A DNA stretch of 64,000 bases. It comes from Haloarchaeobius sp. HME9146. Its GTDB lineage: Archaea; Halobacteriota; Halobacteria; Halobacteriales; Natrialbaceae. Of this stretch, positions 2,302-45,202 are shown piece by piece. Below the pieces are notes generated by a model. That model did not search any database. It had not been told where the DNA came from and saw only the letters and a list, made by a program, of their open reading frames with translations. How positions within the stretch are numbered: the first letter of the stretch is position 1; each line of letters starts with the position of its first letter. The stretch is taken from positions 496,001 to 560,000 of the forward strand of contig NZ_JAODVR010000002.1 in NCBI RefSeq assembly GCF_025399835.1. The letters are read 5' to 3'. Both the position numbers and the translations under genes were made by a program.

Positions 2302-2354
2302 CAACGCCATAGAGATAGTTGCGAAGGCCGAGCGCCCCCGCTCGGAGGTTCACC

Positions 2355-3371
2355 ATGAACGGAGCCAACCAGACCGTCAAGACGACCGACAACCGCCCGA
2401 CGACCTACCGGTCAAACGGTGCCCGAACAGAGACGGACGAGTCCACCACTGCGGAACGTGAGGAGACCTCCTGTCCCGAGTGCGGTGCCGACAGCATCGC
2501 CGACCAAGAACACGGCGAGACGGTCTGCAACGAGTGCGGCCTGGTGCTCGCCGAGGATAACGTCGACCGCGGACCGGAGTGGCGCGCGTTCGACAAGGCC
2601 GAGAAGGACAAGAAGTCCCGCGTCGGCGCGCCGACGACCGGAATGCTCCACGACAAGGGCCTCTCCTCGGTCATCGACTGGCAGAACAAGGACGCCTACG
2701 GCAGCCAGCTCTCGGCGCGCAAGCGCCAGAAGATGCAGCGCCTGCGCACCTGGGACGAGCGCTTCCGCGCCACCAGCGCTCGGGACCGCAACCTGAAGCA
2801 GGCGCTCGGCGAGATCACCCGGATGGCCAGCGCGCTGGACCTCCCCGACAACGTCCAGGAGACCGCGTCGGTCATCTACCGCCGCGCCCTCGAAGAGGAC
2901 CTCCTCCCCGGTCGGTCCATCGAGGCGATGGCGACCGCGTCCCTCTACGCGGCGGCCCGGCAGAGTAACGTGCCCCGGAGCCTCGACGAGTTCGCCCCCG
3001 TGAGCCGCGTCGACCGCCGTGAGTTCGCCCGGGCGTACCGCTACATCGGGCGCGAGCTCGGCCTCGCCGTCGAGCCCGCCGACCCGGCGGAGTACCTGCC
3101 GCGGTTCTGCTCGGAGCTCGAGGTCTCCCACGAGGTCAAGACCCTCGCCCACGAGCTCATCGAGTCCGGCAAGCGCCAGAGCGTGCACAGCGGCAAGTCC
3201 CCGGTCGGGCTCGCCGCGGCGGCCATCTACGCCGCCTCCCTGCTGGCCAACGAGAAGTTGACCCAGAAGGAGGTCGGCGAGGCCGCCGAGGTCAGCGAGG
3301 TCACCATCCGCAACCGCTACAAGGAGCTCTTGCACGCGAACGACGAGAGCCAGCAGCAGGCGACCGCCTGA
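2355..3371 (+). CDS. tfb: Transcription initiation factor IIB (TFB)
   Basis: General archaeal transcription factor that binds TBP-DNA and the BRE and recruits RNA polymerase. The N-terminal zinc ribbon is CPEC...CNEC (Cys pairs), followed by the B-finger region DRGPEWRAF. Two cyclin-like repeats follow, with a final HTH near EVSEVTIRNRYKEL. The length, 338 residues, is normal. An in-frame ATG exists 36 nt upstream, but the start at MNGANQ was chosen because the preceding residues are not family-like. Haloarchaea carry many TFBs; a second copy lies at 28.2 kb. Confidence 0.92.
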   Translation: MNGANQTVKTTDNRPTTYRSNGARTETDESTTAEREETSCPECGADSIADQEHGETVCNECGLVLAEDNVDRGPEWRAFDKAEKDKKSRVGAPTTGMLHDKGLSSVIDWQNKDAYGSQLSARKRQKMQRLRTWDERFRATSARDRNLKQALGEITRMASALDLPDNVQETASVIYRRALEEDLLPGRSIEAMATASLYAAARQSNVPRSLDEFAPVSRVDRREFARAYRYIGRELGLAVEPADPAEYLPRFCSELEVSHEVKTLAHELIESGKRQSVHSGKSPVGLAAAAIYAASLLANEKLTQKEVGEAAEVSEVTIRNRYKELLHANDESQQQATA

Positions 3372-12081: not shown

Positions 12082-14109
12082 ATGGAAATCGAGAAGGACA
12101 ACTCTGAGTTAGCTGCTAGTACCGACACCCCGCCCACGAACAGGGAATACGGGCCGTTCCCGCCAGCGCCAGCGCCGGACGACGACTCCGACGAGGCCAC
12201 GGCCGAACTGCTCGGCGGCCTCGAGGTCGAGAGCACCGCCGACGTGGAGGTCCCGCGCATGCTCATCGACCAGGTCATCGGGCAGGACCGGGCCCGCGAT
12301 ATCATCGAGAAAGCCGCGACACAGCGCCGGCACGTGATGATGATCGGCTCCCCAGGGACCGGGAAGTCGATGCTCGCGAAGGCGATGGCCGAGCTGCTCC
12401 CGAGTAGTGAACTCTCCGACGTACTCGTCATGCACAACGAGGACGACGGGAACCGCCCGAAGGTCGAGATCGTCCCGGCCGGTGGCGGCGAGCTCGTCAT
12501 CAGGGAGCACCGCCAGCGCGCCCGGAAGGGCCTCCAGCTCCGCTGGTTCGCGATGTGGACGACGATACTGCTCGTGTTCATCTACACCATCATCGTCCAG
12601 CAACTGCTGCTTGGCATCCTGGCCATCGCAGTCATCTACTACATCTTCCGGAGCGGGGCCCGGAACCGGAACCGGATGGTCCCGAAGATACTGGTCGACA
12701 ACAGTGAACGTACAAGTGCGCCGTTCCAGGACGCGAGCGGCGCTCACGCGGGGGCACTCCTCGGCGACGTGCGCCACGACCCGTACCAGTCCGGTGGGAT
12801 GGAGACGCCGAGCCACGACCGCGTCGAACCCGGCGCAATCCACAAGGCCGACAAGGGCGTGTTGTTCATCGACGAGATCAACACGCTCGAGGTCCGCACG
12901 CAGCAGAAGCTGCTGACGGCGCTCCAGGAGCGCGAGTACTCCATCACCGCCCAGTCAGACACCTCGTCTGGTGCGATGGTCCACACCGAAGCTGTCCCGT
13001 GCGAGTTCGTCATGATCGCCGCAGGGAACCTCGACGCGATGGAGAACATGCACCCCGCACTCCGGAGCCGTATCAAGGGCTACGGGTACGAGGTCTACAT
13101 GGACGACACCATCGACGACTCGCCGGAGATCCGACGCAAGTTCGTTCGGTTCGTGGCCCAGGAAGTGGCGAACGACGGGCGTCTTCCCCACTTCACCCGG
13201 GGGGCCATCGCGGAGATAGTCCGCGAGGCACAGCGACGTGCCGGCCGGCAGGACCACCTGACCCTGCGGTTCCGTGACCTCGGCGGCCTCGTCCGCGTCG
13301 CCGGTGACATCGCGCGCGACGAGGGAACCCTGTTCACGACCCGTGAGCACGTCATGCAGGCCAAGCGCCGGGCGCGCTCCATCGAGCAACAGATCGCAGA
13401 CGACTACATCGACCGCCGCCGCGAGTACGACCTCACGGTCAACGAGGGCGCGGTCGTCGGTCGGGTCAACGGCCTGGCCGTCATGGGCGAGGATAGCGGT
13501 ATCGTGATGCCCGTCATGGCCGAGGTCGCGCCCTCCCAGGGCTCGGGCGAGGTCATCGCGACCGGCAAGCTCCAGGAGATAGCGACCGAATCGGTCCAGA
13601 ACGTCTCCGCGGTCGTCAAGAAGTACTCCGACGAGAGCCTCGACCAGAAGGACATCCACATCCAGTTCGTGCAGGCGTACGACGGCGTCGAGGGCGACTC
13701 GGCCTCCGTGACGGTTGCGACCGCCATCCTGTCCGCATTGACCGGTGTGCCGGTCGACCAGAGCGTCGCCATGACCGGCTCCCTGTCGGTCCGGGGCGAC
13801 GTGCTTCCCGTCGGTGGCGTCACCCACAAGGTCGAAGCCGCCGTCAAGGCCGGAAGCAAGCGGGTCATCATCCCGTTCGCCAACGAGCGCGACGTGCTCG
13901 TCGAGCCCGAGGTTCGCGAGCAGGTCGAGATCATCCCCGTCAGGCACATCGGCGAGGTCCTGGACGCCGCCATGGTCACCGAGACGACGAAGCATTCGAT
14001 GCTCGAACGGCTCTCACGGGCCGCGAGCGACACTCTCGGTGAGTTCACGTTCGGCTCGGGCGCGGGCGAGGCTCGCGTCGAGAGCGAGCCCGACTCGGGC
14101 GGCCAGTGA
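12082..14109 (+). CDS. lonB: ATP-dependent protease LonB
   Basis: Membrane-anchored archaeal Lon of 675 residues. The AAA+ domain has Walker [10 protein letters not shown] and Walker [13 protein letters not shown]. Two membrane helices (about residues 155-190, including [13 protein letters not shown]) are inserted between the Walker motifs, as is typical of LonB. The C-terminal protease domain has the catalytic Ser in [10 protein letters not shown] and Lys in [11 protein letters not shown]. It degrades regulatory and misfolded proteins at the membrane; in Haloferax it is essential and affects carotenoid synthesis. Length and order are complete. Confidence 0.97.
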
Positions 14110-14808: not shown

Positions 14809-15091
14809 TGTACTCCCTCTGTGTCGGACGTAGGAGCGTCCGTGGGAAGAATAATGTTCCACGAGTATGGGGAGTGTCCGCACCATCTCCCGGTGAACTG
14901 CGAGCTCATCGACACCTCAGCATCGCAGGGGTGAGTCGTGTCCACGACCGGGTTCGACGGTGCCCGGAACCGGCCGGGTCTGCAGTATCCAGCGCGACTG
15001 AACCTGTAGTCGGTGGTCTGGAATCGTTCGTTTCTTCGACGAAACGATACTACTACTCGGTCAGTTCGGCTGGTACTTACGTATCTGCGAG
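14809..15091. other. Intergenic region ahead of array A
   Basis: No supported gene is visible between the HdeD-like start and the first array A promoter. Confidence 0.5.
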
Positions 15092-15138
15092 CAACTTCGT
15101 GGTACGGGTGTAACGACGTTACTACCTCGGCGCTATAT
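15092..15138 (+). promoter_or_regulatory. Array A promoter block, copy 1
   Basis: CAACTTCGTGGTA, then GTAAC at +18, TTACTACC and TATAT 24 nt after the GTAAC start. The GTAAC-gac-GTTAC core is a perfect inverted repeat here. Confidence 0.8.
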
Positions 15139-15174
15139 CGCGGGATGGCCTACTCCTCGCCGAGGGGGTTGAAA

Positions 15175-15522
15175 ATGACTCACAACGTCTCTCGAGGGGT
15201 GTATCGTCGGAAAGTGCTGAAGACCGTCGGCATCGGCCTCGCCGCCGTCACCGTCGGCAGCCAAGCCGTCTCCGCGAAAGCGGGCCAGGAGCCCAGCGTG
15301 GCTCCCGGTCAGCAATCCGGTGAACAGCCGTTCCACGGTGGTTACTACGGCCGTTACTACCGCCCGTATGGATACTACCGTCCGTACTACCGCGGCTACT
15401 ACCGTGGCTACTACCGCCCGTACTACCGTGGCTACTACCGCGGCTACTACGGCTACCGTGGCTACGGCTACGGGCCGTACATCCGGTTCCGCGGACGCGG
15501 CTTCCGCTTCCGGTACTACTAG
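15175..15522 (+). CDS. Array A protein 1: Tat-exported Tyr/Arg/Gly repeat protein
   Basis: 115 residues. The N-terminus VYRRKVLKTVGIGLAAVTVG carries a twin-arginine motif and a hydrophobic stretch ending in a probable VSA cleavage site. The mature part is almost only Tyr, Arg, Gly and Pro (GGYYGRYYRPYGYYRPYY, RGYYRGYYRPYY, YGYRGYGYGPY) and ends IRFRGRGFRFRYY. It is strongly basic, very unusual in an acidic haloarchaeal proteome. The ATG was chosen because it follows a conserved G-rich leader (GAGGGGGTTGAAA) shared with neighbours. Function unknown; a structural surface or matrix protein is my inference. Confidence 0.75.
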   Translation: MTHNVSRGVYRRKVLKTVGIGLAAVTVGSQAVSAKAGQEPSVAPGQQSGEQPFHGGYYGRYYRPYGYYRPYYRGYYRGYYRPYYRGYYRGYYGYRGYGYGPYIRFRGRGFRFRYY

Positions 15523-15702
15523 TCGAACCGTTCGTCGAGGACCGGGCCACTCCGGGTGGCCCGACCGTTTTTTGGAGTTCCGGGCGGCCGGGAGGTCGGC
15601 CGTCTTCGCACAGCTCGTGACAGACCTGTTGGAGCTGGTCCTTTCGTCGGGGAAACCTCGTATCGGCTTGGTCGTTTCGGGTCGTGATTACGTTTCGTCG
15701 GA

Positions 15703-15750
15703 CAACTCCGTGGTACTGATGTAACGTCGTCACTACCTCGTGATTATATT
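15703..15750 (+). promoter_or_regulatory. Array A promoter block, copy 2
   Basis: CAACTCCGTGGTA, GTAAC at 15721, CACTACC and TATATT at 15745, with the same 18 and 24 nt spacings as copy 1. Confidence 0.8.
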
Positions 15751-15788
15751 TTGATACCTCCTATGAGTGTGGCGAGGGGGTTGCAATT

Positions 15789-16181
15789 ATGACTTACAAC
15801 GACTCTCGGAACATGTATCGTCGCAAACTGCTGAAGACCGTCGGTATCGGCCTCGCCGCCGTCGCCGTCGGCAGTCAGGCCGTCTCCGCGAACGAGGGAC
15901 AGACGCCAGCCGTCGAGCCCGGACAGAAGCCCACCGACGAACAGTTCGGTGCGTACTGGGGCGGCCCCTGGGGCGGAACCTGGCGTGGCTACTACCGCGG
16001 CTACGGGTACGACCCGTGCTGTGGTGTCGGTGGCTCGTTCTATCGGCCGTACGGTTATCGTGGCTACGGACTCCGCGGGTACGGCATCCGCGGCCGTGCC
16101 CCGTTCTACGGCGGGTTCGGTTCCCGTGGTGGGTACTACCGCTTGAGCGGCTCGCCGAACTGGCGCTACCGCGTGTACTGA
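15789..16181 (+). CDS. Array A protein 2: Tat-exported Gly/Tyr/Arg-rich protein
   Basis: 130 residues. The signal region MYRRKLLKTVGIGLAAVAVG is nearly identical to its neighbours, with probable cleavage after VSA. A short linker containing EQFGAYWGGPWGGTW is shared with protein 3. Then come Arg/Tyr/Gly repeats and one Cys pair (YDPCCGVGG). The C-terminus is GSPNWRYRVY. The Cys pair could crosslink or bind metal (inference). No catalytic domain is visible. Confidence 0.75.
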   Translation: MTYNDSRNMYRRKLLKTVGIGLAAVAVGSQAVSANEGQTPAVEPGQKPTDEQFGAYWGGPWGGTWRGYYRGYGYDPCCGVGGSFYRPYGYRGYGLRGYGIRGRAPFYGGFGSRGGYYRLSGSPNWRYRVY

Positions 16182-16399
16182 GTAGCCGACCATCGGCGGC
16201 CGGCCGATCGCCGGAATCGTCGGTGCGTCCAGACCCGCGATCGACCGCGGGCGTGGTAGTTCCGGGAGCTCGAGGGGCTCCCGGTTTTCTCGTTCGACTC
16301 CGTCCGGAATGCCGACAGTGAACTCGACCTGCCCGCGGTTTCCTCCGGGATACGTTCTTTCCGGGTGGTTAGTTCGGCAGGTGATTACGTTTCGTCGGA

Positions 16400-16446
16400 C
16401 AACTCCGTGGTACTGACGTAACGGCATCACTACCGCGAAATTATAC
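16400..16446 (+). promoter_or_regulatory. Array A promoter block, copy 3
   Basis: CAACTCCGTGGTA, GTAAC at 16418, CACTACC and TATAC at 16442; spacings 18 and 24. Confidence 0.8.
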
Positions 16447-16481
16447 TTCGTAATCGCCTACTCACCCCGAGGGGGTTGAAA

Positions 16482-16844
16482 ATGACTCACAACGACTCTC
16501 GAGGAGTGTATCGTCGTAAAGTGCTGAAGACCGTCGGTGTCGGCCTCGCAGCCGTCGCAGTCGGCAGCCAGGCAGCCTCGGCCAAGGAGGGGAAAGCGCC
16601 CGCCATCGCGCCCGGCCAGAAGCCAACCGAAGAACAGTTCGGTGCGTACTGGGGCGGCCCGTGGGGGGCCTACTGGCGCAGCTACGGTGCGTACAACCCG
16701 TACTGTGACCCGTGTGCCGGTGCCGCCTACTGGCGTGGCTACGGCTACCGTGGCTACTACGGACGCCGGTTCTACGGACGCGGCTACTACGGACGGTCGT
16801 ACCTCCGGTTCCGTGGCCGTGGGTTCCGCTTCCGGTACTACTAG
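16482..16844 (+). CDS. Array A protein 3: Tat-exported Tyr/Arg/Gly-rich protein
   Basis: 120 residues. The signal is VYRRKVLKTVGVGLAAVAVG with a twin arginine. The linker EQFGAYWGGPWGAYW matches protein 2, and the tail LRFRGRGFRFRYY matches protein 1, so the cluster grew by duplication and recombination. Three Cys occur in CDPCAG and just before it. An in-frame TTG lies two codons upstream; the ATG at 16482 was chosen because it sits at the same place after the GGGGGTTGAAA leader as in protein 1. Confidence 0.75.
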   Translation: MTHNDSRGVYRRKVLKTVGVGLAAVAVGSQAASAKEGKAPAIAPGQKPTEEQFGAYWGGPWGAYWRSYGAYNPYCDPCAGAAYWRGYGYRGYYGRRFYGRGYYGRSYLRFRGRGFRFRYY

Positions 16845-17057
16845 TCGAACAGCCAGACGGCTCGCTTTCCAGCCGTCGTCCCATCCTGCTTTCTTTGTCG
16901 TCTCTCACCACGAGAGCGCTCGCGGCGTAGATCGGCCAGAGTCCCTGAAAGTACCGCCCAGCTCCGCAACCCCGTGTCGCCGTTACCCGGCGGTGATACC
17001 GGCGGCGAAACGTGACTACGGCGTGCTCGTTTCGACTGGTAGTTCCGTGTCGTCGTG

Positions 17058-17106
17058 TAACTTCGTGGTTCGCTCGTAACCAGATTATTACCGTGTGATT
17101 ATGTTT
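17058..17106 (+). promoter_or_regulatory. Array A promoter block, copy 4
   Basis: TAACTTCGTGGTT, GTAAC at 17076, TTATTACC and TATGTTTT at 17100; spacings 18 and 24. Confidence 0.78.
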
Positions 17107-17144
17107 TAACAACCCCTACAGTGGTGCCGAGGGGTTGAGAATTC

Positions 17145-17501
17145 ATGACTCATAACGATACTCGGAGTATGGGACGCCGCAAGCTGTTGAAGACCGTCGG
17201 CATCGGCCTCGCCGCTGTCGCCGTCGGCAGCCAGGCTGTCTCCGCGAACCAGGGCCGGTCCGTCGAGCACAACGTCGGCACCGGCGCACCCGGCACCGGC
17301 CAGCCGTATCACCGCGGGTACTATCGCCGGTACTATCGCGGCTACTACCGCCCGTATGGGTACCGCCGCTACGGCTACCGCGGCTACTACCGCCCGTACG
17401 GCTACTACGGCTACCGCGGCTACGGCTACTACGGCTACGGCCCGTCGTACTTCAGCTACGAACGTGACCGCGACGGATCGGTCGAGATCGACTTCTACTA
17501 G
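17145..17501 (+). CDS. Array A protein 4: Tat-exported Tyr/Arg/Gly repeat protein
   Basis: 118 residues. The signal is MGRRKLLKTVGIGLAAVAVG. The mature body is a run of YR, YG and GY units (YRGYYRPYGYRRYGYRGYY, YGYRGYGYYGYGPSYF) and ends in an acidic tail ERDRDGSVEIDFY. That tail is a small version of the acidic beta patterns seen in family B. It is co-oriented with the rest and has its own promoter, so the cluster is not a single operon. Confidence 0.75.
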   Translation: MTHNDTRSMGRRKLLKTVGIGLAAVAVGSQAVSANQGRSVEHNVGTGAPGTGQPYHRGYYRRYYRGYYRPYGYRRYGYRGYYRPYGYYGYRGYGYYGYGPSYFSYERDRDGSVEIDFY

Positions 17502-17750
17502 TCGAACCGATACGACGGGAGCCGACCCGTCTGTAACTCGGATTTTTCGGTGGCGATGTGGGGAGAGCGAGCGCCAGCACACCTCACTGCAGAGCCACGA
17601 GCCATCGATGCCAGCGCGGCCGCTTCGCGTACGCGAGGCCCCATCCCTCGCCGTTACGACGTCCCTGTGATGAGATGGCCCCAGGGAGATTCCGCCGGGG
17701 AAACGTGCTTCCCTGCTGGTCGTTTTCGCTGGTAGTTCCGTTACATTGTG

Positions 17751-17798
17751 CAACTTCGTAGTACCGAAGTAACAGAATTATTACCTCGGAGCTATATT
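17751..17798 (+). promoter_or_regulatory. Array A promoter block, copy 5
   Basis: CAACTTCGTAGTA, GTAAC at 17769, TTATTACC and TATATTTT at 17793; spacings 18 and 24. Confidence 0.8.
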
Positions 17799-17837
17799 TT
17801 ATTAACTCATATCGAAGTGCGGGGGTTGAACTCCAAA

Positions 17838-18365
17838 ATGACTCAAGATAACACTCGAGGAATGTATCGACGAAAGCTGCTGAAGACCGTCGGTGTCGGC
17901 CTCGTTGCTGTCGGTGTCGGAAGCCAGGCTGTTTCTGCGAACCAGGGCGCATCGCCGAGCGTCAAGGGTGGCCTCGGTGAGGAACAGTGGTACGGCCGTC
18001 GCGGCTACTACGGTGGCCGCTTCCGGTTCCGCCGCCGTGGCTACTACGATCGCCGGTTCCGTGGCCGCCGCTTCTACGGCCGCCGCTTCGGCTACCGCGG
18101 CCGCATCGGCTACTACGGTGTCGACCCCTGTGGCGTCGACCCGTGTGCTGTTGACCCGTGTGCGGACATCGACCCGTGCGCAGACCCCTGCGCCGACGTC
18201 GACCCGTGTGCGGACGTCGACCCGTGTGCAGATCCCTGCGCCGACGTCGACCCGTGCGCTGACCCGTGCGCCGGCGGGCTTGGCGGGCTCTACACCCGCC
18301 CTGTCCCGTACCGCGGGCGCTTCCGCTACCGCCGCCGCCGGTACGGCCGGCGCACTCTCTACTGA
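17838..18365 (+). CDS. Array A protein 5: Tat-exported Arg-rich protein with DPCA Cys repeats
   Basis: 175 residues. The signal is MYRRKLLKTVGVGLVAVGVG. An Arg/Tyr/Gly block (YYGGRFRFRRRGYYDRRFRG) leads into a Cys repeat block containing ten DPC units in mixed DPCAD, VDPCA and IDPCA spacing. A second Arg/Tyr block closes the protein (RFRYRRRRYGRR). A Cys/Asp/Pro core between two basic arms suggests disulfide crosslinking or metal binding outside the cell (inference). The closest relative is protein 6. Confidence 0.77.
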   Translation: MTQDNTRGMYRRKLLKTVGVGLVAVGVGSQAVSANQGASPSVKGGLGEEQWYGRRGYYGGRFRFRRRGYYDRRFRGRRFYGRRFGYRGRIGYYGVDPCGVDPCAVDPCADIDPCADPCADVDPCADVDPCADPCADVDPCADPCAGGLGGLYTRPVPYRGRFRYRRRRYGRRTLY

Positions 18366-18391
18366 AATCGCCGTGTAAACTGTCGAAATAT

Positions 18392-18427
18392 CGACTAGAG
18401 CAACTCTAGTCGAGGGTGATTATTTTT
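18392..18427 (+). terminator. Stem-loop plus T-rich tract after array A gene 5
   Basis: A perfect 9-bp inverted repeat with a 3-nt loop (CGACTAGAG-CAA-CTCTAGTCG, 18392-18412) is followed by a T-rich stretch. It lies 27 nt after the stop codon and is a plausible terminator. Confidence 0.55.
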
Positions 18428-18708
18428 CGCTCGTCTGAACTTGACCGCCACCGAGCGACTGCAACCACAGAACTCGTTGGACGGTAGTCGGAACCGCTCA
18501 TCCTGGTGAGAGCGTCGATCTCTCGGAGCGTGCCGAGGGGCTCACCCACATCCTTCACGACCAACTCCCACCAGAACGGGCAGTTCGTTCGTCAGTTGCG
18601 TACCCGCCGGGACATTCCGAGCCGGTTCGGGCGTGACGCCGCCGAGATTCCGGGACGGAGAGATGATTCCCCGCTGGTCGTTTCGGCTGGTAGTATCGGT
18701 ACGTTGTG
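18428..18708. other. Intergenic spacer within array A
   Basis: No gene supported. It is longer than the other array A spacers and holds no recognisable signal-peptide remnant. Confidence 0.4.
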
Positions 18709-18756
18709 CAACTTCGTGGTGTCCGGGTAACCAGATTGTCAGCTAACCAATATATC
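18709..18756 (+). promoter_or_regulatory. Array A promoter block, copy 6
   Basis: CAACTTCGTGGTG, GTAAC at 18727, then GTCAGC and TATATC at 18751; spacings 18 and 24. Confidence 0.78.
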
Positions 18757-18793
18757 TCAAAAGCCCATCTGTGAGGGTGAGGTTCGAACAACA

Positions 18794-19288
18794 ATGACCA
18801 ACCAAGATTCTCACGGAATGTTCCGCCGCAAGCTCCTGAAGACCATCGGTGTCGGCCTCGTGGCCGTCGGTGTCGGTAGCCAGGCAGTCTCCGCGGCCCA
18901 GGGTGGAAAGAGCGACGGCTCCGAGATCCTCCGGCCGTACTGGAGCCGGCGCGGATACCGTGGCTACTACGGCGGCTACCGCGGCTACGGCTACCGCGGC
19001 CGCTTCGGCTACTACGGCGTGAACCCCTGTGGCGTCGATCCCTGTGCCGACCCGTGTGCGGACATCGACCCGTGCGCCGACCCGTGTGCGGACATCGATC
19101 CCTGTGCTGACCCGTGTGCAAACGTCGACCCGTGCGCCGATCCCTGCGCTGACGTCGACCCCTGTGCGGTCGACCCCTGTGCTGACCCGTGCGCCGGTGG
19201 CCTGTACCGCCGGGGCTTCTACGGTCGCGGTCTCTACGGTGGCCGCTTCCGCTACCGCCGCCGGTTCGCTCGCCCCGCACTCTACTAA
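18794..19288 (+). CDS. Array A protein 6: Tat-exported protein with DPCAD Cys repeats
   Basis: 164 residues. The signal is MFRRKLLKTIGVGLVAVGVG. Same three-part plan as protein 5: an Arg/Tyr/Gly arm, a Cys block with eleven DPC units plus one NPC (CADPCADIDPCADPCAD-type repeats), then an Arg-rich arm. The Cys blocks of proteins 5 and 6 differ in unit number and order, which suggests repeat expansion or contraction. A structural crosslinked role is inferred. There is no known domain. Confidence 0.77.
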   Translation: MTNQDSHGMFRRKLLKTIGVGLVAVGVGSQAVSAAQGGKSDGSEILRPYWSRRGYRGYYGGYRGYGYRGRFGYYGVNPCGVDPCADPCADIDPCADPCADIDPCADPCANVDPCADPCADVDPCAVDPCADPCAGGLYRRGFYGRGLYGGRFRYRRRFARPALY

Positions 19289-19456
19289 TCTCGTCGCCTG
19301 AACGAACGAGCGGCTGGCATCGCCCAGCCGTCGTCTCCGCGTATTTTTCGAGCGACCCGTCACCAGTACAGCGCCGCCGGTGAGCGCTAGCCAGGGAACC
19401 TCACGAGGACGTGAGTACCGGGCAGTAGTATCCTCTGGAAGGTCCAGATTCTCTAG

Positions 19457-19503
19457 TAACTTGGTAGTGTTCTGGTAACGAAAGTATCAGCTGGTGATTA
19501 TCC
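19457..19503 (+). promoter_or_regulatory. Array A promoter block, copy 7
   Basis: TAACTTGGTAGTG, GTAAC at 19475, GTATCAGC and TTATCC around 19498; spacings 18 and 24. Confidence 0.72.
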
Positions 19504-19538
19504 CCGGATAGGGCCTAAGACTCGATGTAGATCCAATC

Positions 19539-20267
19539 ATGACGTTACGTTCATCGCCGTCGGGACTTCGACGGCGACTCATCAAGACAGTCGGGTTCGG
19601 CCTGCTGAGCCTCGGCAGTGGGACCGCCGCGGCTGCCGGACCCCAGGGAACGCTGCAGCACCAACAGGAGCGAGACCGAGATCGCCGACGCCAGGACGGC
19701 GACGGTCGACGAGGTCGTCGCAGTGACGGCCGCCGTGGCCAGGGTGGCGACGACGGGCGACGGCGCAGACGCCGGCGTTACGACGATGGCGATGGCCGAC
19801 GCCGGAGACGCCGCCGCGACGACAGTGACGACGGGAGACGCCGCAGACGAAGACGCCGCCGCGACGATGATGACGATGGCAGACGCCGTAGACGAAGACG
19901 CCGCCGCGACGACGATGACGACGGGAGACGCCGCAGACGCCGCCGCCGCGATGATGATGACTACCGCCGCCGCCGCAGACGACGCCGACGTGACGGCGAC
20001 GACCGGCGGCGGAGACGCAGACACCGCAGACCCCGCTACGGTCACCGGTTCTACTACCGGCGGTACTACCCGCGTCGGCGGTTCACCTACACCTTCATCC
20101 CGATGTACGGGTACGACGTCTACTGGGACGACGACTACTTCGACGTGGTGTACGTCGACGGTCGTCCGTGCCGCGTGACGGGTGTCGACTACGACCAGGG
20201 CATCATCGAGCTCGAGTACGGCTACTGTGGCTACGTCGGGTTCGACGGCGTCTACTACCGGGTCTGA
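19539..20267 (+). CDS. Array A protein 7: Arg/Asp block polyampholyte
   Basis: 242 residues. The N-terminus GLRRRLIKTVGFGLLSLG is a divergent Tat-like signal. Residues about 40-165 are alternating blocks of Arg (up to nine in a row) and Asp (up to five), as in DDDDDGRRRRRRRRR. A C-terminal domain of about 75 residues is rich in Tyr, Asp and Val, with YGYDVYWDDDYFDVVYV, and holds two Cys. Long Arg tracts next to Asp tracts are exceptional and suggest a self-associating material (inference). The opposite strand is also open, which is a by-product of the repeats. Confidence 0.72.
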   Translation: MTLRSSPSGLRRRLIKTVGFGLLSLGSGTAAAAGPQGTLQHQQERDRDRRRQDGDGRRGRRSDGRRGQGGDDGRRRRRRRYDDGDGRRRRRRRDDSDDGRRRRRRRRRDDDDDGRRRRRRRRRDDDDDGRRRRRRRRDDDDYRRRRRRRRRDGDDRRRRRRHRRPRYGHRFYYRRYYPRRRFTYTFIPMYGYDVYWDDDYFDVVYVDGRPCRVTGVDYDQGIIELEYGYCGYVGFDGVYYRV

Positions 20268-20379
20268 CCGCCGACTCGGTCCTCTTTCTCGTCTGTCGCT
20301 GCAGCGAACACCGGTCGGTCTCCGTGCGGTTACGTCCCCGTGGTGAGGACGTTTCAGTGAGAGATTACGTGTGGTCGGA

Positions 20380-20427
20380 CAACTCGGTGGTGTCCCGGTA
20401 ACCAATTCATCACTTCAGAGATATATT
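20380..20427 (+). promoter_or_regulatory. Array A promoter block, copy 8
   Basis: CAACTCGGTGGTG, GTAAC at 20398, CATCACT and TATATT at 20422; spacings 18 and 24. Confidence 0.78.
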
Positions 20428-20465
20428 CGAAGCTCGCATAGCTTCTGTTCGAGAGGCTTTCACCC

Positions 20466-20906
20466 ATGAAACGAAATTTCATCGAGGGAACGTCCCGACG
20501 AACCGTCCTCAAGACCGTCGGCATCGGGCTGGTGTCGCTCGGTCTCGGAAGCGGCGTCGCCGCAGCGGCCGACCGGTCCGGGCCCAACCAACCGACCGTC
20601 CAGTCCGGCGAGCTGCCGACCCAGGCGTCACATCGTCGTCGCTACCGCCGACATGGTCGACGCCGCTATCGTCGCTACGGCCGACGGTACCGCCGGCACG
20701 GTCGCCGTCGCTACCGCCGCTACCGCCGCCACGGTTACGGGTGGGCCGGCTATTACCCCGGCTACTACGGTGACGACGTCGAGATCAGGGTGTACGGTGA
20801 CCCGTACTACTCGGGCTACTACGGCGGCTACGGCCCGGTCTTCGTGGACGACGACGAGTACATCTACTTCGGCCCTGGCGGCTACGTCGAGGTAGACTTC
20901 GACTAA
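20466..20906 (+). CDS. Array A protein 8: Tat-exported Arg/Tyr-rich protein with acidic tail
   Basis: 146 residues. The signal is TSRRTVLKTVGIGLVSLGLG with probable cleavage in VAAA. A basic block of RRYRRHGRRRYRR repeats with several His is followed by a Tyr/Gly/Asp region (YYPGYYGDDVEIRVYG) and an acidic end (DDDEYIYFGPGGYVEVDFD). The switch from strongly basic to strongly acidic within one small protein resembles protein 7 and links the two extremes of the cluster. Function unknown. Confidence 0.74.
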   Translation: MKRNFIEGTSRRTVLKTVGIGLVSLGLGSGVAAAADRSGPNQPTVQSGELPTQASHRRRYRRHGRRRYRRYGRRYRRHGRRRYRRYRRHGYGWAGYYPGYYGDDVEIRVYGDPYYSGYYGGYGPVFVDDDEYIYFGPGGYVEVDFD

Positions 20907-21009
20907 CCTGGTCGTCTCGACTCCAATTAATCGGGGGACCGAACGCGGGGAGCGCCGACCGAACCGTCCACAGGACTACGTTTCTGGATGGAAACTTCGT
21001 GTCGTCGTG

Positions 21010-21056
21010 CAACTTGGTGGTAGCCGCGTAACCCCGTTACTACCGCGTTATTATCC
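21010..21056 (+). promoter_or_regulatory. Array A promoter block, copy 9
   Basis: CAACTTGGTGGTA, GTAAC at 21028, GTTACTACC and TTATCC around 21051; spacings 18 and 24. Confidence 0.77.
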
Positions 21057-21093
21057 GGCGATGCCTCCAATTTTTACCTGGAGGGAGTTGAAA

Positions 21094-21543
21094 ATGTATC
21101 CCGAAAGCGATCAGGGAGTGTATCGACGAAAGTTGTTGAAGACCGTTGGAATCGGTCTGTTGACGGCCAGTGTCGGTAGCGGGGCCGTCTCCGCAGCCGA
21201 GGGTGGCCGACCGAAGAGCCCGGCCGTCGAGCCGGCCGCGGGCCACACCGAAGGTGACCAGTTCCAGCGCGGTGACGGTGGCCGTCGCGGTGGTCGCCGT
21301 CGCGGTCGCCGTCGTGGTCGTCGCCGCGGTCGCCGTCGTGGTCGCCGTCGCCGGTTCCGCCGCCGCCGTCGCCGGTTCCGCCGTCGCCGCCGCCGGTTCC
21401 GCCGTCGCCGCCGCCGGTTCCGCGATGACGACATCGACATCCGCATCTACGGTGGGTACTACCCGTACTACTACCCGTACTACTACCCATACTACAGCCG
21501 GTACTACTACTACGACCCGTACTACGGGTCCTACTGGTACTGA
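21094..21543 (+). CDS. Array A protein 9: poly-Arg/Phe repeat with poly-Tyr tail
   Basis: 149 residues. The signal is VYRRKLLKTVGIGLLTASVG. The mature part has a GRRRGRRRGRRR region, then four RRRRRRF-like heptads, a short acidic break (DDDIDIRIYGG) and a tail that is mostly Tyr (YYPYYYPYYYPYYSRYYYY). Arg heptads with regular Phe followed by Tyr repeats give a very cationic, aromatic protein suited to cation-pi contacts (inference). The start follows a GGAGGGAGTTGAAA leader. Confidence 0.75.
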   Translation: MYPESDQGVYRRKLLKTVGIGLLTASVGSGAVSAAEGGRPKSPAVEPAAGHTEGDQFQRGDGGRRGGRRRGRRRGRRRGRRRGRRRRFRRRRRRFRRRRRRFRRRRRRFRDDDIDIRIYGGYYPYYYPYYYPYYSRYYYYDPYYGSYWY

Positions 21544-21791
21544 GCTGGGTAGCGGGTGACCGACCAGTCGGCTGGCGGCCACCCAGAACCGGTATCGAGC
21601 ACGACCACCCGGGAACAGCCACGAGACCGATTTTTTGTTCGTCAGAGTGATGGAACTCGTAGCGCTGCGTTCACCGCCTGCACATCCCCCGTAGGCGTGA
21701 CTGGACGGGAAGGAACCGTCTCCAGACTCGTGATGCAGCGGTTACGTCATCTCCGATTGCACCTTCCAGCTGGTAAGTCCATTCGGTCGGA

Positions 21792-21838
21792 CAACTTCGT
21801 GGTACCCGTGTAACCAGTTTATTAGCTAACATTATATT
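21792..21838 (+). promoter_or_regulatory. Array A promoter block, copy 10
   Basis: CAACTTCGTGGTA, GTAAC at 21810, TTATTAGC and TATATT at 21833; spacings 18 and 23. Confidence 0.78.
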
Positions 21839-21880
21839 CCCGGACACTGCCTAGGTACTGGCTGAGAGGGAACTACCACC

Positions 21881-22504
21881 ATGAAACAACATTCCTCGAC
21901 GCAAAGCACGCGACGTACCCTGCTCAAGACCATCGGCACGGGCCTCCTCACCATCGGGGTGGGTTCCCAGGCGGTCGCCGCGTCCGACGACGGCGGCTAC
22001 CGTAGCCGCAACTTCCGGCGGAACCGCCGCAACTACAACACCCGCGGTGGCTACCGCCGCAGCAACAGTTACGGTGGCCGTGGCTACAACCGCAACAACA
22101 GTTACGGCCACCGCGGCTACGGCCGCAGCAACAGTTACGGCCACCGCAGCGCTCCCAGCCGGAGCTTCAGTTCGGGCCACGGTCCTGCCGGGAGCCAGAG
22201 CATCGGCGCATCGAGCCACAACGCCCCGGCCCCGTACTACGGCAGCAACTACGGTCCGTACTACGGCGGCTCGTTCGAGTTCGACCACGGTGAGGTCGAG
22301 GTCCGCGGCGACATCCTCGCCGGCGGGTTCGAGTACGAACGTGACGACTACACCGGTGACATCGAGTTCGAGAGCGCCGAGATCGACTTCGAGTACGACT
22401 ACGCCTACGGCGACATGGAGTTCGAGACCTTCGGTCGCTGTGACGTGATCAAGTTCGAGGTCGAGGGCGACGACCTCGAGGCGGACTTCGGCGCCTGCTA
22501 CTGA
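21881..22504 (+). CDS. Array A protein 10: Ser/Asn/Tyr/Gly repeat protein with acidic beta domain
   Basis: 207 residues. The signal is STRRTLLKTIGTGLLTIGVG. Residues about 40-125 are low-complexity Asn/Ser/Tyr/Gly/Arg (RSNSYGHRGYGRSNSYGHR). The C-terminal 90 residues are alternating acidic/hydrophobic (FEYERDDYTGDIEFESAEI). The block YERDD-x-x-G-x-IEF is also the entry motif of family B at 31-46 kb, so this protein bridges the two families. One Cys lies in FGRCDV and one near the end (FGACY). Confidence 0.76.
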   Translation: MKQHSSTQSTRRTLLKTIGTGLLTIGVGSQAVAASDDGGYRSRNFRRNRRNYNTRGGYRRSNSYGGRGYNRNNSYGHRGYGRSNSYGHRSAPSRSFSSGHGPAGSQSIGASSHNAPAPYYGSNYGPYYGGSFEFDHGEVEVRGDILAGGFEYERDDYTGDIEFESAEIDFEYDYAYGDMEFETFGRCDVIKFEVEGDDLEADFGACY

Positions 22505-22690
22505 GAAGGGCTAACTGGGTCGACCGGACCCGGGGTACTCCTTGCTGTCTGAACCATAGCCGGTCGTCGATTTTTCTGTGCGTCTGTGTCCAGAGCGACC
22601 GCAGTCGGTGGGTCGGTCACTGAAGTAGTGTCTCCCGCGCGAGGACTTCCCTGACGAAACGAGCGTCAGGTGTCGACGTATCCATCCGGA
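22505..22690. other. Spacer before decayed array A copy
   Basis: No gene visible and no intact array A promoter block. Confidence 0.4.
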
Positions 22691-22699
22691 AACTGAGCT

Positions 22700-22850
22700 A
22701 TTCATTACCATGGCACACCTATGGGTAACTGAGACGGACGAAATCACACGATAGACAGCACCACCGACTCACGAACGCGGAGAACAGCCGATTCGAGACT
22801 GCCCATACGTGCCACACCTGGTCTGGTTGCCCGCGAATCGACCGTTACCG
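22700..22850 (+). pseudogene. Decayed array A gene, relative of protein 11
   Basis: The stretch around 22711-22770 resembles the leader and first codons of protein 11. Both have CACCTATG, a spacer, a GGA-AATCAC element, then GACAGCACCACC versus GACAGCACTACC. Here the start codon reads ATA (22751) instead of ATG. The frame continues IDSTTDSRTRRT against MDSTTNSGTSRRT, then loses the Tat hydrophobic segment. No intact GTAAC block precedes it. The 3' limit is uncertain; 22850-23180 holds no recognisable domain. Confidence 0.55.
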
Positions 22851-23185
22851 GTCGAGCGGGCGCGAGACGCTACCACCGGCCCAACCGTCGTCACCACCGA
22901 CGCCGACCTGCCATTCAGTGCCTCGGTGACCGACGACGACCGCGGCCACACAGACCGCGTACGGTCTGCCTTTTCAGTACCCGGATTCCGTGAACCGGTG
23001 GTTCGGGACTGCAACACCGCTTCTTCGGCATCACCGCAGCGACCAGCCGAGCTCTCCTCACGATGTCCTGTTCCCCGTCGAGGCGCGGCTCCCCACCGCG
23101 CTGGAACCTGCCAAACCACCGGTTTGGCCCATCTGTGACCAGATGTATCGTCGTCTCGTCACTGCGGAACTTCCATTCCATCGGT

Positions 23186-23232
23186 AAACTTCGGCGTACT
23201 GTCGTAACTGGTTGGATAGTAGACGTGTTATC
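23186..23232 (+). promoter_or_regulatory. Array A promoter block, copy 11 (divergent)
   Basis: AAACTTCGGCGTA, GTAAC at 23204, degenerate GGATAGTA and TTATC around 23228; spacings 18 and about 25. Confidence 0.65.
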
Positions 23233-23276
23233 TGTGGAGCCCACCTATGAGTTAGTGAGAAGGAGGAAATCACCCA

Positions 23277-23834
23277 ATGGACAGCACTACCAACTCAGGA
23301 ACCTCGCGACGCACGCTACTCAAGACCCTCGGCACCGGCCTGCTCACTGCCGGCACCGTGGTGGGCTCCGCTTCAGCCGCCGTCGGTAACACGGCGACCC
23401 CGACCGCCGACGTCGGTGGGACGTTCGCCCGCAGCAACTACTATCGTGGTGGCTACTACGGACGTCGGTTCGCCCCGTACCGCAACGCCTTCCGCCTCCG
23501 CGTGAACGACTACTGCGGCACCGGGGCGACGTTCGACTTCGACTCGATCGACGCGTGGGCGTCCGGGGACACCGAGGTCGAGTTCGTCGGGCCGTACGGG
23601 TCCGCGTACTTCAAGCAGGACTACTACGGTGGCTTCGAGTTCGAGAGCCCCAGCGTCTACATCGACTGTGACTACAACGGCCTCGACGTGCAGCTGCTCG
23701 ACGGCGGCCCGTGTGCGGTCGCGCACTTCGACATCGACGAGGCGGCCGGCGAACTCGACATCCGATACGTCGACGGCGGCTTCATCAAGGTCGACAGCGT
23801 CGACGGCTACTACGGCCGCCGCTACTGGTACTGA
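23277..23834 (+). CDS. Array A protein 11: Tat-exported acidic beta-rich protein
   Basis: 185 residues. The signal is TSRRTLLKTLGTGLLTAGTV, then a short Arg/Tyr segment (YYRGGYYGRRFAPYRN). A mostly acidic beta-type domain follows with TFDFDSIDAW, GGFEFESPSVYIDCDYNG and AHFDIDEAAGELDIRYVDGG. It contains three Cys and ends GYYGRRYWY. The repeat part is reduced while the beta part dominates, so it is the least low-complexity member. Function unknown. Confidence 0.76.
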   Translation: MDSTTNSGTSRRTLLKTLGTGLLTAGTVVGSASAAVGNTATPTADVGGTFARSNYYRGGYYGRRFAPYRNAFRLRVNDYCGTGATFDFDSIDAWASGDTEVEFVGPYGSAYFKQDYYGGFEFESPSVYIDCDYNGLDVQLLDGGPCAVAHFDIDEAAGELDIRYVDGGFIKVDSVDGYYGRRYWY

Positions 23835-28161: not shown

Positions 28162-29121
28162 ATGACACGAAAGGACAGCATCGGAAGCGACGTCCCGTCG
28201 GGTCGCGAGAACGCACCACTCCAGTGTCCGGAATGTGGTGGGTCGCTCCTGAACGACGATACGCATGGTGAGACGGTTTGTATAGACTGCGGTCTCGTGG
28301 TCGCGGAAGACGAGATCGACCGCGGCCCGGAGTGGCAGGCGTTCTCCTCTGACGAGGCCGACCAGCGCAGCCGCGTCGGTGCGCCCGTCTCTGTTCTCTG
28401 GCACGACAAGGGGTTGTCGACGACCATCGACTGGAAGAACGCAGACAGCAGCGGCGCGCCGCTGAGCCACAACCAGCGTCGACAGATGGAACGCCTCCGC
28501 GTGTGGAACCAGCGCTTCACCATGGAGAACTCGAAGAAGCGCAACCTCCGGCAGGCACTCGGTGAGATCGACCGGATGGCGAGCGCGCTCGGGCTCCCGA
28601 CCGACGTTCGCGAGACCGCCTCTGTCATCTACCGGCGCGCGCTCAAGGAGGACCTGCTCCCGGGCCGGAGCATCGAGTCGATCGCGACGGCGTCGCTCTA
28701 CATCGCCGCCAGACAGGTCGGCATCCCGCGAACCATCGACGAGGTCATCGAGGTCAGCCGCATCGAGGACAGCGACTTCCGCCGAGCCTACCGGACGCTC
28801 GTCCGGGAGCTGAACCTCGTCGTCCAGCTCGCCGACCCGAAGGACTACGTGCGCCGGTACGCGTCCCAGCTCGGCCTCTCCTCGGAGGGCGAACGTATCG
28901 CGTACCAGCTGCTCGACAACGCCCAGCAGAAGGGCCTCGACAGTGGCAAGAGCCCAGTGACACTCGCAGCAGCCGCCGTCTACGCCGCGTCCGTGGTGAC
29001 CTCGGAGGACATCACCCAGCGGGACGTCTCGGAGGTCGCGAACATGAGCACCGTGACCATCAGAACCCGGTACAAAGAGCTCCTGAACGCGACCCCGGAG
29101 TATAGCGGCTTCACCCAGTAA
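28162..29121 (+). CDS. tfb: Transcription initiation factor IIB, second copy
   Basis: 319 residues. The zinc ribbon is CPEC...CIDC, the B-finger DRGPEWQAF, followed by two cyclin folds and a C-terminal HTH (VANMSTVTIRTRYKEL). It is clearly diverged from the TFB at 2.4 kb. Multiple TFBs in haloarchaea direct different promoter sets. This one lies between two gene arrays that each share a private promoter motif, so it is a candidate to drive one of them (inference only). Confidence 0.92.
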   Translation: MTRKDSIGSDVPSGRENAPLQCPECGGSLLNDDTHGETVCIDCGLVVAEDEIDRGPEWQAFSSDEADQRSRVGAPVSVLWHDKGLSTTIDWKNADSSGAPLSHNQRRQMERLRVWNQRFTMENSKKRNLRQALGEIDRMASALGLPTDVRETASVIYRRALKEDLLPGRSIESIATASLYIAARQVGIPRTIDEVIEVSRIEDSDFRRAYRTLVRELNLVVQLADPKDYVRRYASQLGLSSEGERIAYQLLDNAQQKGLDSGKSPVTLAAAAVYAASVVTSEDITQRDVSEVANMSTVTIRTRYKELLNATPEYSGFTQ

Positions 29122-31784: not shown

Positions 31785-32594
31785 ATGGCAGACCTTTCCA
31801 AGCGACAATATCTGAAGTACGCAGGCGCATCTCTTGCTGCTCTCTCCCTCGGCGTGGGCGGGAAACTCGCAGCTGACGGCACACTCCAGTCGAGTGTGAA
31901 GGAGACAACAGAAGTCGCCCCTGCGGCGAAGCCCGGAACCGAAGCCGCCCCTGAACCCATCCTGGGCCCGGCTGGCTACGGTGACATCCTCGACTACGAG
32001 CGCGACGACTACGGGAACATCGAGTTCGACTGGGCGTACCTCTCGTTCGAGACCGAGGACGGCGACGTCGACCTCGACGACGTCGGCGTCGACTTCGAGA
32101 CCGACATCTACAGCGAGCACCTCGAGCTGACCGTCGAGGACAGCGAAGTGTACGTCGACCTCGAGATGAACGACAACGGCGACCAGCTCGAACTGGACAT
32201 CGCGTTCCGCGACGAGTACATCTCGTTCGAGTTCGACTACGGTGAGGTCGAGTTCGAGTCCGACGGCGGTGGCTACCAGTTCGAGGACGACCGCCGCGAC
32301 ATCGAGTACCGCGGACGCTACCTTGACTTCGAGTACGACGAGGACAGCCAGGAACTCGAGATCAAGGGCGCGATCAAGCTCGAACTCGAGACCGACAACG
32401 GGCTGGACTTCGAGTACGCCGACGGCCGCATCGCCATCGACTTCGACACCACGGAGCTCGAGTACGCAGGCGAGGACGTCCTGATGGAGTGGGAATGGCG
32501 CGGTGGCAACCACGGCTACGGCAGCCGGCACTCCGAGGACGAGTTCGAGGCACGCCGCATCGGCCCCGGTGGAGCCTGCCACACGCTCTGCTAG
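31785..32594 (+). CDS. Array B protein 1: exported acidic beta-repeat protein
   Basis: 269 residues. The N-terminus SKRQYLKYAGASLAALSLGV is a Tat-like signal with Lys-Arg in place of Arg-Arg. After a Pro/Ala linker comes the entry motif ILDYERDDYGNIEF. About 190 residues of alternating acidic and hydrophobic/aromatic residues follow, such as FEFDYGEVEFESDGG and LDFEYADGRIAIDFD, which predicts many edge beta-strands. The family tail DEFEARRI is followed by a unique extension with two Cys (GGACHTLC). Function unknown; a surface or matrix role is inferred. Confidence 0.78.
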   Translation: MADLSKRQYLKYAGASLAALSLGVGGKLAADGTLQSSVKETTEVAPAAKPGTEAAPEPILGPAGYGDILDYERDDYGNIEFDWAYLSFETEDGDVDLDDVGVDFETDIYSEHLELTVEDSEVYVDLEMNDNGDQLELDIAFRDEYISFEFDYGEVEFESDGGGYQFEDDRRDIEYRGRYLDFEYDEDSQELEIKGAIKLELETDNGLDFEYADGRIAIDFDTTELEYAGEDVLMEWEWRGGNHGYGSRHSEDEFEARRIGPGGACHTLC

Positions 32595-32793
32595 AACACC
32601 CGCAGCACAGACTGCTGCTCTGACACTCTTTCGACCCCTTTCTTCGAGCACGATTCCAACCGCCGAGCGACGCGGAAACTCTGTACTACTGACGCGCCCG
32701 GTGCCGGTTCCATGACGTGGGACCGGGGAGGCTGTACCCCCGAGTAATCGACCTTCGTCCGCGTACCTCCGTCCGCGGAACGACCGTACTGTC

Positions 32794-32813
32794 CGGTAAT
32801 TTGATAGTTCATT
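32794..32813 (+). promoter_or_regulatory. Array B promoter motif, copy 2
   Basis: CGGTAATTTGATAGTTCATT, 55 nt before the ATG. Confidence 0.75.
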
Positions 32814-32848
32814 ACCTTCCGGTTCTTCTGTTGCTCTGAGGAATCGAT

Positions 32849-33625
32849 ATGGCAGCCCTTTCCAAACGGCAGTATCTGAAGTACGCTGGTGCGTCCCTCG
32901 GCGTCGTCTCGCTCGGTGTCGGCGGGACACTCGCAGCAGGGAGCGCGTTCCAGCCGAGCGTGGAGCAACCGACCGCGAACGTCGAAGAGACCAACGAGGT
33001 AACGCCCGCGGCGAAACCCGACACCGAGGCGGTACCCGAACCGATCATCGGGCCCAGGGGTGTCGGCGAGATACTCGATTACGAGCGCGACGACTACGGG
33101 AACATCGAGTTCGACTGGGAGTTCGTGTCCTTCGAGACCGACGACGGTGACATCGACCTCGACGACGTCGGCGTCGACTTCGAGACAGACCTCGACAGCA
33201 GTTTCATCGAGTTGACCGTCGAGGACAGCGAAGTGTTCGTCGACCTGGAGTTCGACCGCGAGGACAACTACTGCGAGATAGAGATCGCGTTCCGCGAGGA
33301 GTACATCGATTTCGAGTTCGACGCCGGCGACACCGACTTCAAATCGAGCGGGACCGGCTACCAGTACGAGGAGGACAAGCGCGATATCGAGTACAAGGGC
33401 CGCTACCTCGACTTCGAGTACGACGAGGAGAAGGGTGAACTCGAGATAAAGGGTGCCATCAAGCTCGAACTCGAGATAGACAACGGACTGGACTTCGAGT
33501 ACGCCGACGGCCGCATCTTCATCGACTTCGACACCACGGAGCTCGAGTACAGTGGCGAAGGCGTGGCATTCGAGTGGGAGTGGCGTGACGGTGGCGACGA
33601 CGAGTTCGAAGCGCGTCGCTTCTGA
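32849..33625 (+). CDS. Array B protein 2: exported acidic beta-repeat protein
   Basis: 258 residues. The signal is SKRQYLKYAGASLGVVSLGV. The linker is longer and diverged (QPTANVEETNEVTPAAKP). The entry motif ILDYERDDYGNIEF and the beta body are conserved, including TVEDSEVFVDLEFDRED and AIKLELEIDNGLDFEYADGR. One Cys lies in NYCEIE. It ends DDEFEARRF. More diverged than proteins 1, 4, 5 and 6, so it is an older copy. Confidence 0.78.
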   Translation: MAALSKRQYLKYAGASLGVVSLGVGGTLAAGSAFQPSVEQPTANVEETNEVTPAAKPDTEAVPEPIIGPRGVGEILDYERDDYGNIEFDWEFVSFETDDGDIDLDDVGVDFETDLDSSFIELTVEDSEVFVDLEFDREDNYCEIEIAFREEYIDFEFDAGDTDFKSSGTGYQYEEDKRDIEYKGRYLDFEYDEEKGELEIKGAIKLELEIDNGLDFEYADGRIFIDFDTTELEYSGEGVAFEWEWRDGGDDEFEARRF

Positions 33626-33743
33626 GTGGCAGTACCTGTACGAGCGTCCGATTCGCGGTCCTGGGTTTTCGCAGTCGGTTCTATGTCACGGTGTGAACCA
33701 CCGGTTCCAGACCCCGTATCCGACCGGTTACGGAACGACCAAA

Positions 33744-33763
33744 CAGTTATTTGATACTTCATA
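33744..33763 (+). promoter_or_regulatory. Array B promoter motif, copy 3
   Basis: CAGTTATTTGATACTTCATA, 55 nt before the ATG. Confidence 0.78.
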
Positions 33764-33798
33764 CCAGAAGATGGCTAGTCTCCACTCGAGGCACTGAA

Positions 33799-34599
33799 AT
33801 GGCAGACCTTTCCAAACGGCAGTATCTGAAGTATGCAGGCGCGTCCCTCGCCGCCCTCTCGCTGGGCGTCGGTGGCAAGCTCGCCGCGGACGGCTCGTTC
33901 GCCCCCGCGGTCGGTGAGACCTCGCGCGTCGCAGCCGGTGCGAACCCGGAAGCGACGCCGATTCTCCGCAGCGCAGGCATCGGTGACATCCTCGACTACG
34001 AGCGCAAGGACGACGGAGCCATCGAGTTCGACTGGGGCCTGCTCTCGTTCGAAACCGAGAGCGACGGCTCGTTCGAGATAGAGGACCTCGGCGTCGACAT
34101 CGAGGCACTCATCGACGGCGGTGACGACCTGGAAGCTCTCGATATGCGCGTCGAGGACACCGAACTGTACTTCGACCTCGAGATCCTCGAGGACCGCGGT
34201 ATCGACTCCGTCGAGCTGGATTTCGCGTTCCGCGACGAGTGGGTGCAGTTCGAGTTCGACGCTGACGGGCCGAAAGTCGAGTTCGAGTCCGACGGCAGCG
34301 GCCACCAGTTCGAGGCCGAAGACGACAGCCGGGACATCGAGTACATGGGCCGCAACATCAAGTTCGAGTTCCAGGAGACCGACGGTGAGAACTGGGAGCT
34401 CGAGATCACGGGCGCGATTCGGGCCGACATCGAGTGGAACGAAGACGGCGAACTCGACGTCGACTACATCGACGGTCGCATCGCCGTCGACATCGACGTC
34501 GGGTCCCTCGACGTGGAGTACGCGGGCGAGGACGTCATGTTCGAATGGGAGTACGTCGACTACGGCACGGACGACGAGTTCGAAGCCCGTCGTATCTGA
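33799..34599 (+). CDS. Array B protein 3: exported acidic beta-repeat protein
   Basis: 266 residues. The signal is identical in plan (SKRQYLKYAGASLAALSLGV). The linker is distinct (APAVGETSRVAAGANPEA). The entry motif is ILDYERKDDGAIEFDW. The body has insertions relative to siblings (DIEALIDGGDDLEALDM) and ends EWEYVDYGTDDEFEARRI. The ATG was chosen because it is preceded by the same CGAGGCACTGAA leader as in copies 4, 5 and 6; the longer in-frame start would add an unrelated segment. Confidence 0.78.
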   Translation: MADLSKRQYLKYAGASLAALSLGVGGKLAADGSFAPAVGETSRVAAGANPEATPILRSAGIGDILDYERKDDGAIEFDWGLLSFETESDGSFEIEDLGVDIEALIDGGDDLEALDMRVEDTELYFDLEILEDRGIDSVELDFAFRDEWVQFEFDADGPKVEFESDGSGHQFEAEDDSRDIEYMGRNIKFEFQETDGENWELEITGAIRADIEWNEDGELDVDYIDGRIAVDIDVGSLDVEYAGEDVMFEWEYVDYGTDDEFEARRI

Positions 34600-34930
34600 A
34601 CACGTTTCCCGGGGTAGCGACTACCCCGTCCCAACGCAGACAGGCGAAGACCGACCATTCGGACGTAGATATTTTCTCACGCTGAACCGCAGAGCGACAG
34701 CAGTGGAGGCGGGGCTGGTCGCTGGTTCTTTCCGGCGCAACTGCACTGTTCTTCGCGACCCGCGAACCCCAGGCCCGACTACCGAGTGGGCCCGACTACC
34801 AACTGAGCCAGCCGCCCGGGGAGCCCGAGCTGTCGCCCGGTGACCGGGCTCGGGACGAGAACCACGAGCCGGGAATGCGACGTCGCTCGACTACGCCAGG
34901 GGAACTCCCGATGGTAACGAGGCAACGTTT

Positions 34931-45201: not shown

Positions 45202-45202
45202 A

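Follow-up and report, generated by a model that had tools for sequence, protein, structure and literature searches.

An array of exported Arg/Tyr-rich proteins with cysteine repeats in Haloarchaeobius: a possible disulfide-set extracellular layer

The window, a 64,000-nt stretch of Haloarchaeobius sp. HME9146 (G000:C2:496001-560000, where G000 is the source genome), lies within a 675-kb contig. It contains an array of 11 small-protein genes (g1-g11; 15175-23834, all on the + strand), bordered by lonB and a gene that we take, from reading its sequence, to be DUF308-like on one side and by a DUF192 gene on the other. All 11 products appear to be exported. g1 (15175-15522) is an RGY-rich and g4 (17145-17501) an RGY protein, both Cys-free, and the RGY proteins of g2 (15789-16181) and g3 (16482-16844) carry a single DPCC and a single YCDPCAG motif, respectively. 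Members 5 and 6 of the array, g5 (17838-18365, 175 aa) and g6 (18794-19288, 164 aa), contain cysteine repeats. They are followed by g7 (19539-20267), with poly-Arg blocks alternating with poly-Asp blocks, the Arg/Tyr-rich g8 (20466-20906), the poly-Arg/Tyr protein g9 (21094-21543), g10 (21881-22504), whose C-terminal part is acidic, and the final member g11 (23277-23834). The Arg/Asp blocks of g7 are long; in its mature part Arg makes up 37% of the residues, and Asp and Glu together 20%.

Behind the leader, g1-g9 are low-complexity and rich in Arg, Tyr and Gly (predicted pI 8.4 to 11.5), unlike g10 and g11, which are predicted to be acidic. At most three Cys occur in nine of the 11 proteins. 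The leader itself is nearly the same throughout the array and Tat-like (RRKLLKTVGxGL...AxA, with RRKLLKT and VSA/AAA visible). An earlier note on this DNA had placed g5 and g6 outside the cell; the Tat-like leader on every array gene favours that location, while the NCBIfam Tat model TIGR01409 stayed just below its cut-off (best 16.4 bits against 16.7).

The DPC clusters that the note had counted in g5 and g6 were reproduced: 10 DPC units in g5 (18123-18272, + strand) and 11 DPC plus one NPC in g6 (19022-19195, + strand). These units take up all Cys of the two proteins, giving even totals of 10 and 12; the g5 ortholog of the congener G001 also has 10 DPC units and 10 Cys. In 20,000 shuffles of each protein, DPC/NPC motifs averaged ~0.1 and never exceeded three. 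Among 33 acidic ORFs of the window, used as a proxy proteome (12,061 residues), Cys made up 0.80% and DPC/NPC was absent. The unit name DPCAD, by contrast, suits only five units per protein, the rest reading DPCAV, DPCGV, DPCAN or DPCAG, and DPC-A plus D, V, DV or DI describes the repeat more accurately. Gaps from Cys to Cys alternate between 3 and 5, with an occasional 4 and nothing else. The flanking arms are Arg-rich, as the note had said, and Tyr- and Gly-rich as well. No Pfam family matched g5 or g6 at E up to 1, including the Cys-rich spore-coat and exosporium families, and literature searches found no account of these proteins. The structure model of g5, built on an alignment of three sequences, had no confident fold (pLDDT 41).

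No other stretch of g5 is nearly as constrained as the DPC region. Against the G001 ortholog this region shows 18 synonymous and one non-synonymous change (dS 0.85, dN 0.008), against ~24.5 and 46.5 in the arms, which are of low complexity and align poorly (dN/dS ~0.01 and ~0.6, respectively; Fisher P 2e-6). The same contrast between repeat and arms appeared when g6 was compared with g5 and with the g5 ortholog. Because only two species carry the system, these estimates of constraint are rough. The excess of synonymous change nevertheless indicates that the peptide is kept rather than the DNA repeat; since the DNA drifts under a preserved peptide, slippage alone is no explanation. The arms are kept in composition and free in sequence. 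The single DPC motifs of g2 and g3 could plausibly represent the origin from which the repeat grew.

A 76-bp promoter module precedes the array genes, with a strong copy before 10 of the 11 (g1-g10). The upstream regions of these genes align without gaps over 76 bp and share the pattern AACTTCGTGGT-N6-GTAAC at constant spacing; a TATA-like stretch follows GTAAC, which lies 64-71 bp from the start codon. A promoter model built from 16 array elements of the two species (R1) located the modules, all on the + strand, at 15065-15139 (g1, a training member, 67.5 bits), 15676-15750 (g2, 66.1 bits), 16373-16447 (g3, 68.3 bits), 17031-17105 (g4, 70.7 bits), 17725-17798 (g5, 65.1 bits), 18682-18756 (g6, 59.2 bits), 19431-19503 (g7, 46.1 bits), 20354-20427 (g8, 52.7 bits), 20984-21055 (g9, 64.0 bits) and 21766-21837 (g10, 61.1 bits); before g11 there is a weak match (23166-23211, + strand, 17.2 bits).

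Across six genomes of the genus, R1 found two sites outside the array with E < 1e-3 (26.8 and 24.2 bits; E 1.3e-5 and 8.7e-5), and both directly precede genes for exported low-complexity proteins. One lies before the gene of a 147-aa Pro/Tyr/Arg protein (G000:C1:1927442), the other before a gene of G001 encoding a Cys-repeat protein with C-X10-C spacing, and a third, weak site (11.7 bits, E 0.66) precedes a relative of the latter in G000. A second model with the outside sites added (R2), not independent for those sites, gave 14 strong sites in G000 and eight in G001; no site fell between E 5e-11 and 0.02, and beyond that there was only noise. Weak members may have gone unnoticed, as 150 of >1,000 candidates per genome were scored and the E-values are approximate. 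The sequence data thus support a shared promoter of an exported set, which takes in several Cys-free Arg/Tyr proteins; no metal-handling gene was seen among the genes with the module. The module would switch the set on together, presumably under a common controlling condition. The 147-aa protein (L076 5443-5886), Pro/Tyr/Arg-rich and preceded by the module, has two Cys and a His-containing end.

The CX10C proteins form a second Cys-repeat family, with three tandem genes in G000 (C1:3.1298-3.1323 Mb; L074 5768-8291) and one in G001 (L075 8253-9026). They are exported and have the same promoter module as the array. Their repeat keeps C-X10-C throughout, in mostly CRYSRRFNAYVC-like units (four or six per protein, 20 in the four proteins), and the mature proteins have an even number of Cys (8 or 12). 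AlphaFold, run on a shallow alignment of four sequences, modelled all four units of one of these proteins as beta-hairpins (pLDDT of the block mostly 66-90), with the Cys of each unit in cross-strand register (66/77, 91/102, 117/128, 142/153). Cysteines facing each other across the modelled hairpin suggest one disulfide per hairpin, a prediction that, given the shallow alignment, amounts to support rather than proof. Neither Pfam (no match above cut-off) nor a fold search with the model (no significant match) linked the family to others, and a match in G097 proved to be a ferredoxin-like protein.

A third DPC protein is encoded on another replicon, the 3.49-Mb contig C1 (C1:23009-24106; L036 5010-6110). 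Its 366 aa begin with a Tat-like leader and RGRYGRRGFYG; a VCEPLCEPEPVCEP stretch spaced C-X3-C-X5-C (Cys gaps of 3 and 5) then precedes a spondin domain, and ten DPC units make up the tail. The domain was recognized by NF038123 (E 5e-23, 82.3 bits against a curated cut-off of 40); Pfam Spond_N stayed below cut-off. The G001 ortholog, with 86% identity, has nine DPC units in its tail, and Cys totals of 23 and 20 in the two proteins mean that the number is not always even. Spondin proteins of G003 and G012 share the domain but, unlike the third DPC protein, have no acidic-Pro-Cys arms flanking it. These G012 and G003 proteins (L023, L024) are Tat-like; one ends in Thr/Glu repeats and the other has a second domain. 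The DPC-spondin gene was excluded from the promoter class because it has no module, and its co-expression with the array is therefore unsupported. At the DNA level, a run of 43 identical nt joins the spondin tail and g5 (window 18169-18211), longer than in all 300 synonymous recodings. It suggests recent DNA exchange between replicons C1 and C2, to be read with the caution that six pairs were compared.

The DPC array proteins and the DPC-spondin protein were found only in G000 and G001 (2/125 family genomes), as was the CX10C family (2/125). A DNA pattern for DPCADxDPC likewise matched these two alone among 391 genomes of the class, a control pattern giving no match, and none was found in a collection of 84,980 species, which may not include the source genome and those very close to it. 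The second lonB copy (12082-14109, + strand), which flanks the array in both genomes, follows the same distribution (two of six congeners); the other four have one lonB each, less similar. Array, DPC-spondin protein, CX10C family and second lonB are thus all confined to the same two of the six genomes in the genus sample. g6 matched nothing in PLSDB or phage records, and the sole PLSDB match, a distant lonB of Natrinema, came without the array. A viral pattern match (L029) was out of frame with the phage gene and due to chance, and weak matches in G034, G090, G107, G123, G327, G356, G373 and G380 fell in unrelated proteins or non-coding frames.

Just past the array, an intact TFB gene (28162-29121, + strand) has a near-identical counterpart at the same place in G001 and could be a dedicated initiation factor or regulator of the set; a second TFB gene (2319-3371) was dismissed as a set-specific regulator because all six congeners have orthologs. 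Further along the same strand, at 31785-46347, at least eight acidic paralogs (MADLSKRQYLKYAGASLAALSLG...DYERDDYGNIEFDW...), probably exported, form another array, which lacks the promoter module of g1-g10. They are weakly similar to the acidic C-terminal part of g10.

The earlier note had seen two neighbouring genes and suggested a disulfide mesh or metal binding. The two genes stand, but the note had missed that they belong to an array with a common promoter, that there are a third DPC protein and a CX10C family, and that all of this is restricted to two species. We propose that the Arg/Tyr-rich proteins are co-regulated and build an extracellular layer that disulfides set, with a DPC-bearing spondin protein as partner, a reading to which we give about even chances. 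The array proteins would be exported, probably via Tat, and turned on jointly by the 76-bp module. Their cationic Arg/Tyr/Gly-rich parts would bind them to one another and to the acidic surface of the cell. During or after export, the material would be set by disulfides of the Cys repeats, which are of the DPC type in g5, g6 and the spondin tail and of the CX10C type in the sister family, and the DPC module common to the matrix proteins and the spondin-domain protein would mark the latter as partner or anchor. The sequences themselves support the leaders, promoter sharing, a third DPC protein, constraint on the repeat and co-distribution. From these we infer disulfide formation, cross-linking between proteins, the layer, contacts with the partner, the anchor role and the inducing condition. 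Against the proposal, a search of the genus for an oxidase, confined to the VKOR type, found none.

The DPC repeats might instead chelate soft metals (Cu, Zn, Ag, Cd) outside the cell, protecting or supplying it. Dense Cys beside Asp could provide Asp-Pro-Cys sites for such metals, the repeat is strongly constrained and unit number differs between copies; we nonetheless regard this as rather unlikely. Metallothioneins typically space their cysteines as CXC, CXXC or CC, clusters that are absent from the DPC repeats with their gaps of 3, 4 and 5. Together with the Cys-free Arg/Tyr members of the promoter-sharing set and the CX10C hairpins with facing cysteines, this makes a disulfide mesh fit better than metal binding, and the lack of a metal-handling gene among those seen with the module also weighs against the latter. 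That most array proteins (9/11) have so few Cys, and that Arg and Tyr dominate their composition, would suit a matrix held by Arg/Tyr interactions only, with DNA, polysaccharide or the S-layer, in which the Cys repeats stabilize individual molecules or have some other role. This we judge unlikely, as no part of g5 is kept nearly as strictly as its Cys repeat, which the spondin protein shares and of which the CX10C family has another form.

Small, cationic, exported, lineage-specific products of a multi-gene array, Arg-rich and Cys-rich, also recall a halocin-like antimicrobial secreted against related strains. The low-complexity architecture with its poly-Arg/Asp and RGY members, the DPC module in a spondin-domain protein and the failure to see an immunity-like partner gene in the array render it quite improbable. 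Tandem, species-restricted DNA repeats of variable unit number could even be a by-product of slippage kept without function, but the ratio of 18 synonymous to one non-synonymous change in the repeat largely refutes this, and the recurrence of this peptide module in another, folded-domain protein, together with promoters conserved in two species, leaves it hardly credible.

If real, a disulfide-set layer in a haloarchaeon, a member of a group whose proteins are normally acidic and Cys-poor, would represent a new way of making a salt-proof biomaterial. A further-reaching version, which we advance as a doubtful but tenable possibility, is a keratin- or eggshell-like archaeal material that evolved within one haloarchaeal genus: a regulon of exported Arg/Tyr-rich proteins and two unrelated Cys-repeat families, set by disulfides, in which the DPC module links the matrix to a spondin surface partner. 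With repeat modules and promoters spreading together in two species, the origin of such a material becomes directly testable. Spore formation as in Actinoarchaeum stays a guess, 'cysteine' and 'coat' occurring in that paper only in the methods.

Disulfide-set extracellular layers are already known from spores and eggshells, and in one archaeal sheath disulfides have been proposed. In Bacillus and Clostridium, the Cys-rich exosporium and spore-coat proteins ExsY, CotY and CsxA build protective layers by self-assembly and disulfide cross-linking, a strategy on which unrelated families have converged (PMC7333573). Their 2D crystals form within the mother cell, whereas the array proteins have Tat-like leaders, are Arg/Tyr-rich and show no sequence match to those families. 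CREMP of the avian eggshell membrane and the slime-mould spore-coat protein SP75 have tandem C-X4-C-X5-C... repeats in extracellular disulfide-rich material (PMC3068167). The DPC repeats resemble them in their tandem, short-spaced Cys, but lack their X8 and X6 spacings (gaps 3-5), and we claim no homology. The sheath protein SH of Methanospirillum hungatei forms an archaeal extracellular layer for which inter-subunit disulfides have been proposed (PMC10593813); it is beta-rich and amyloid-like, has two Cys and is unrelated in sequence to the array proteins. Exosporium, CREMP and SH would thus be analogues of the proposed layer by way of working, not by descent.
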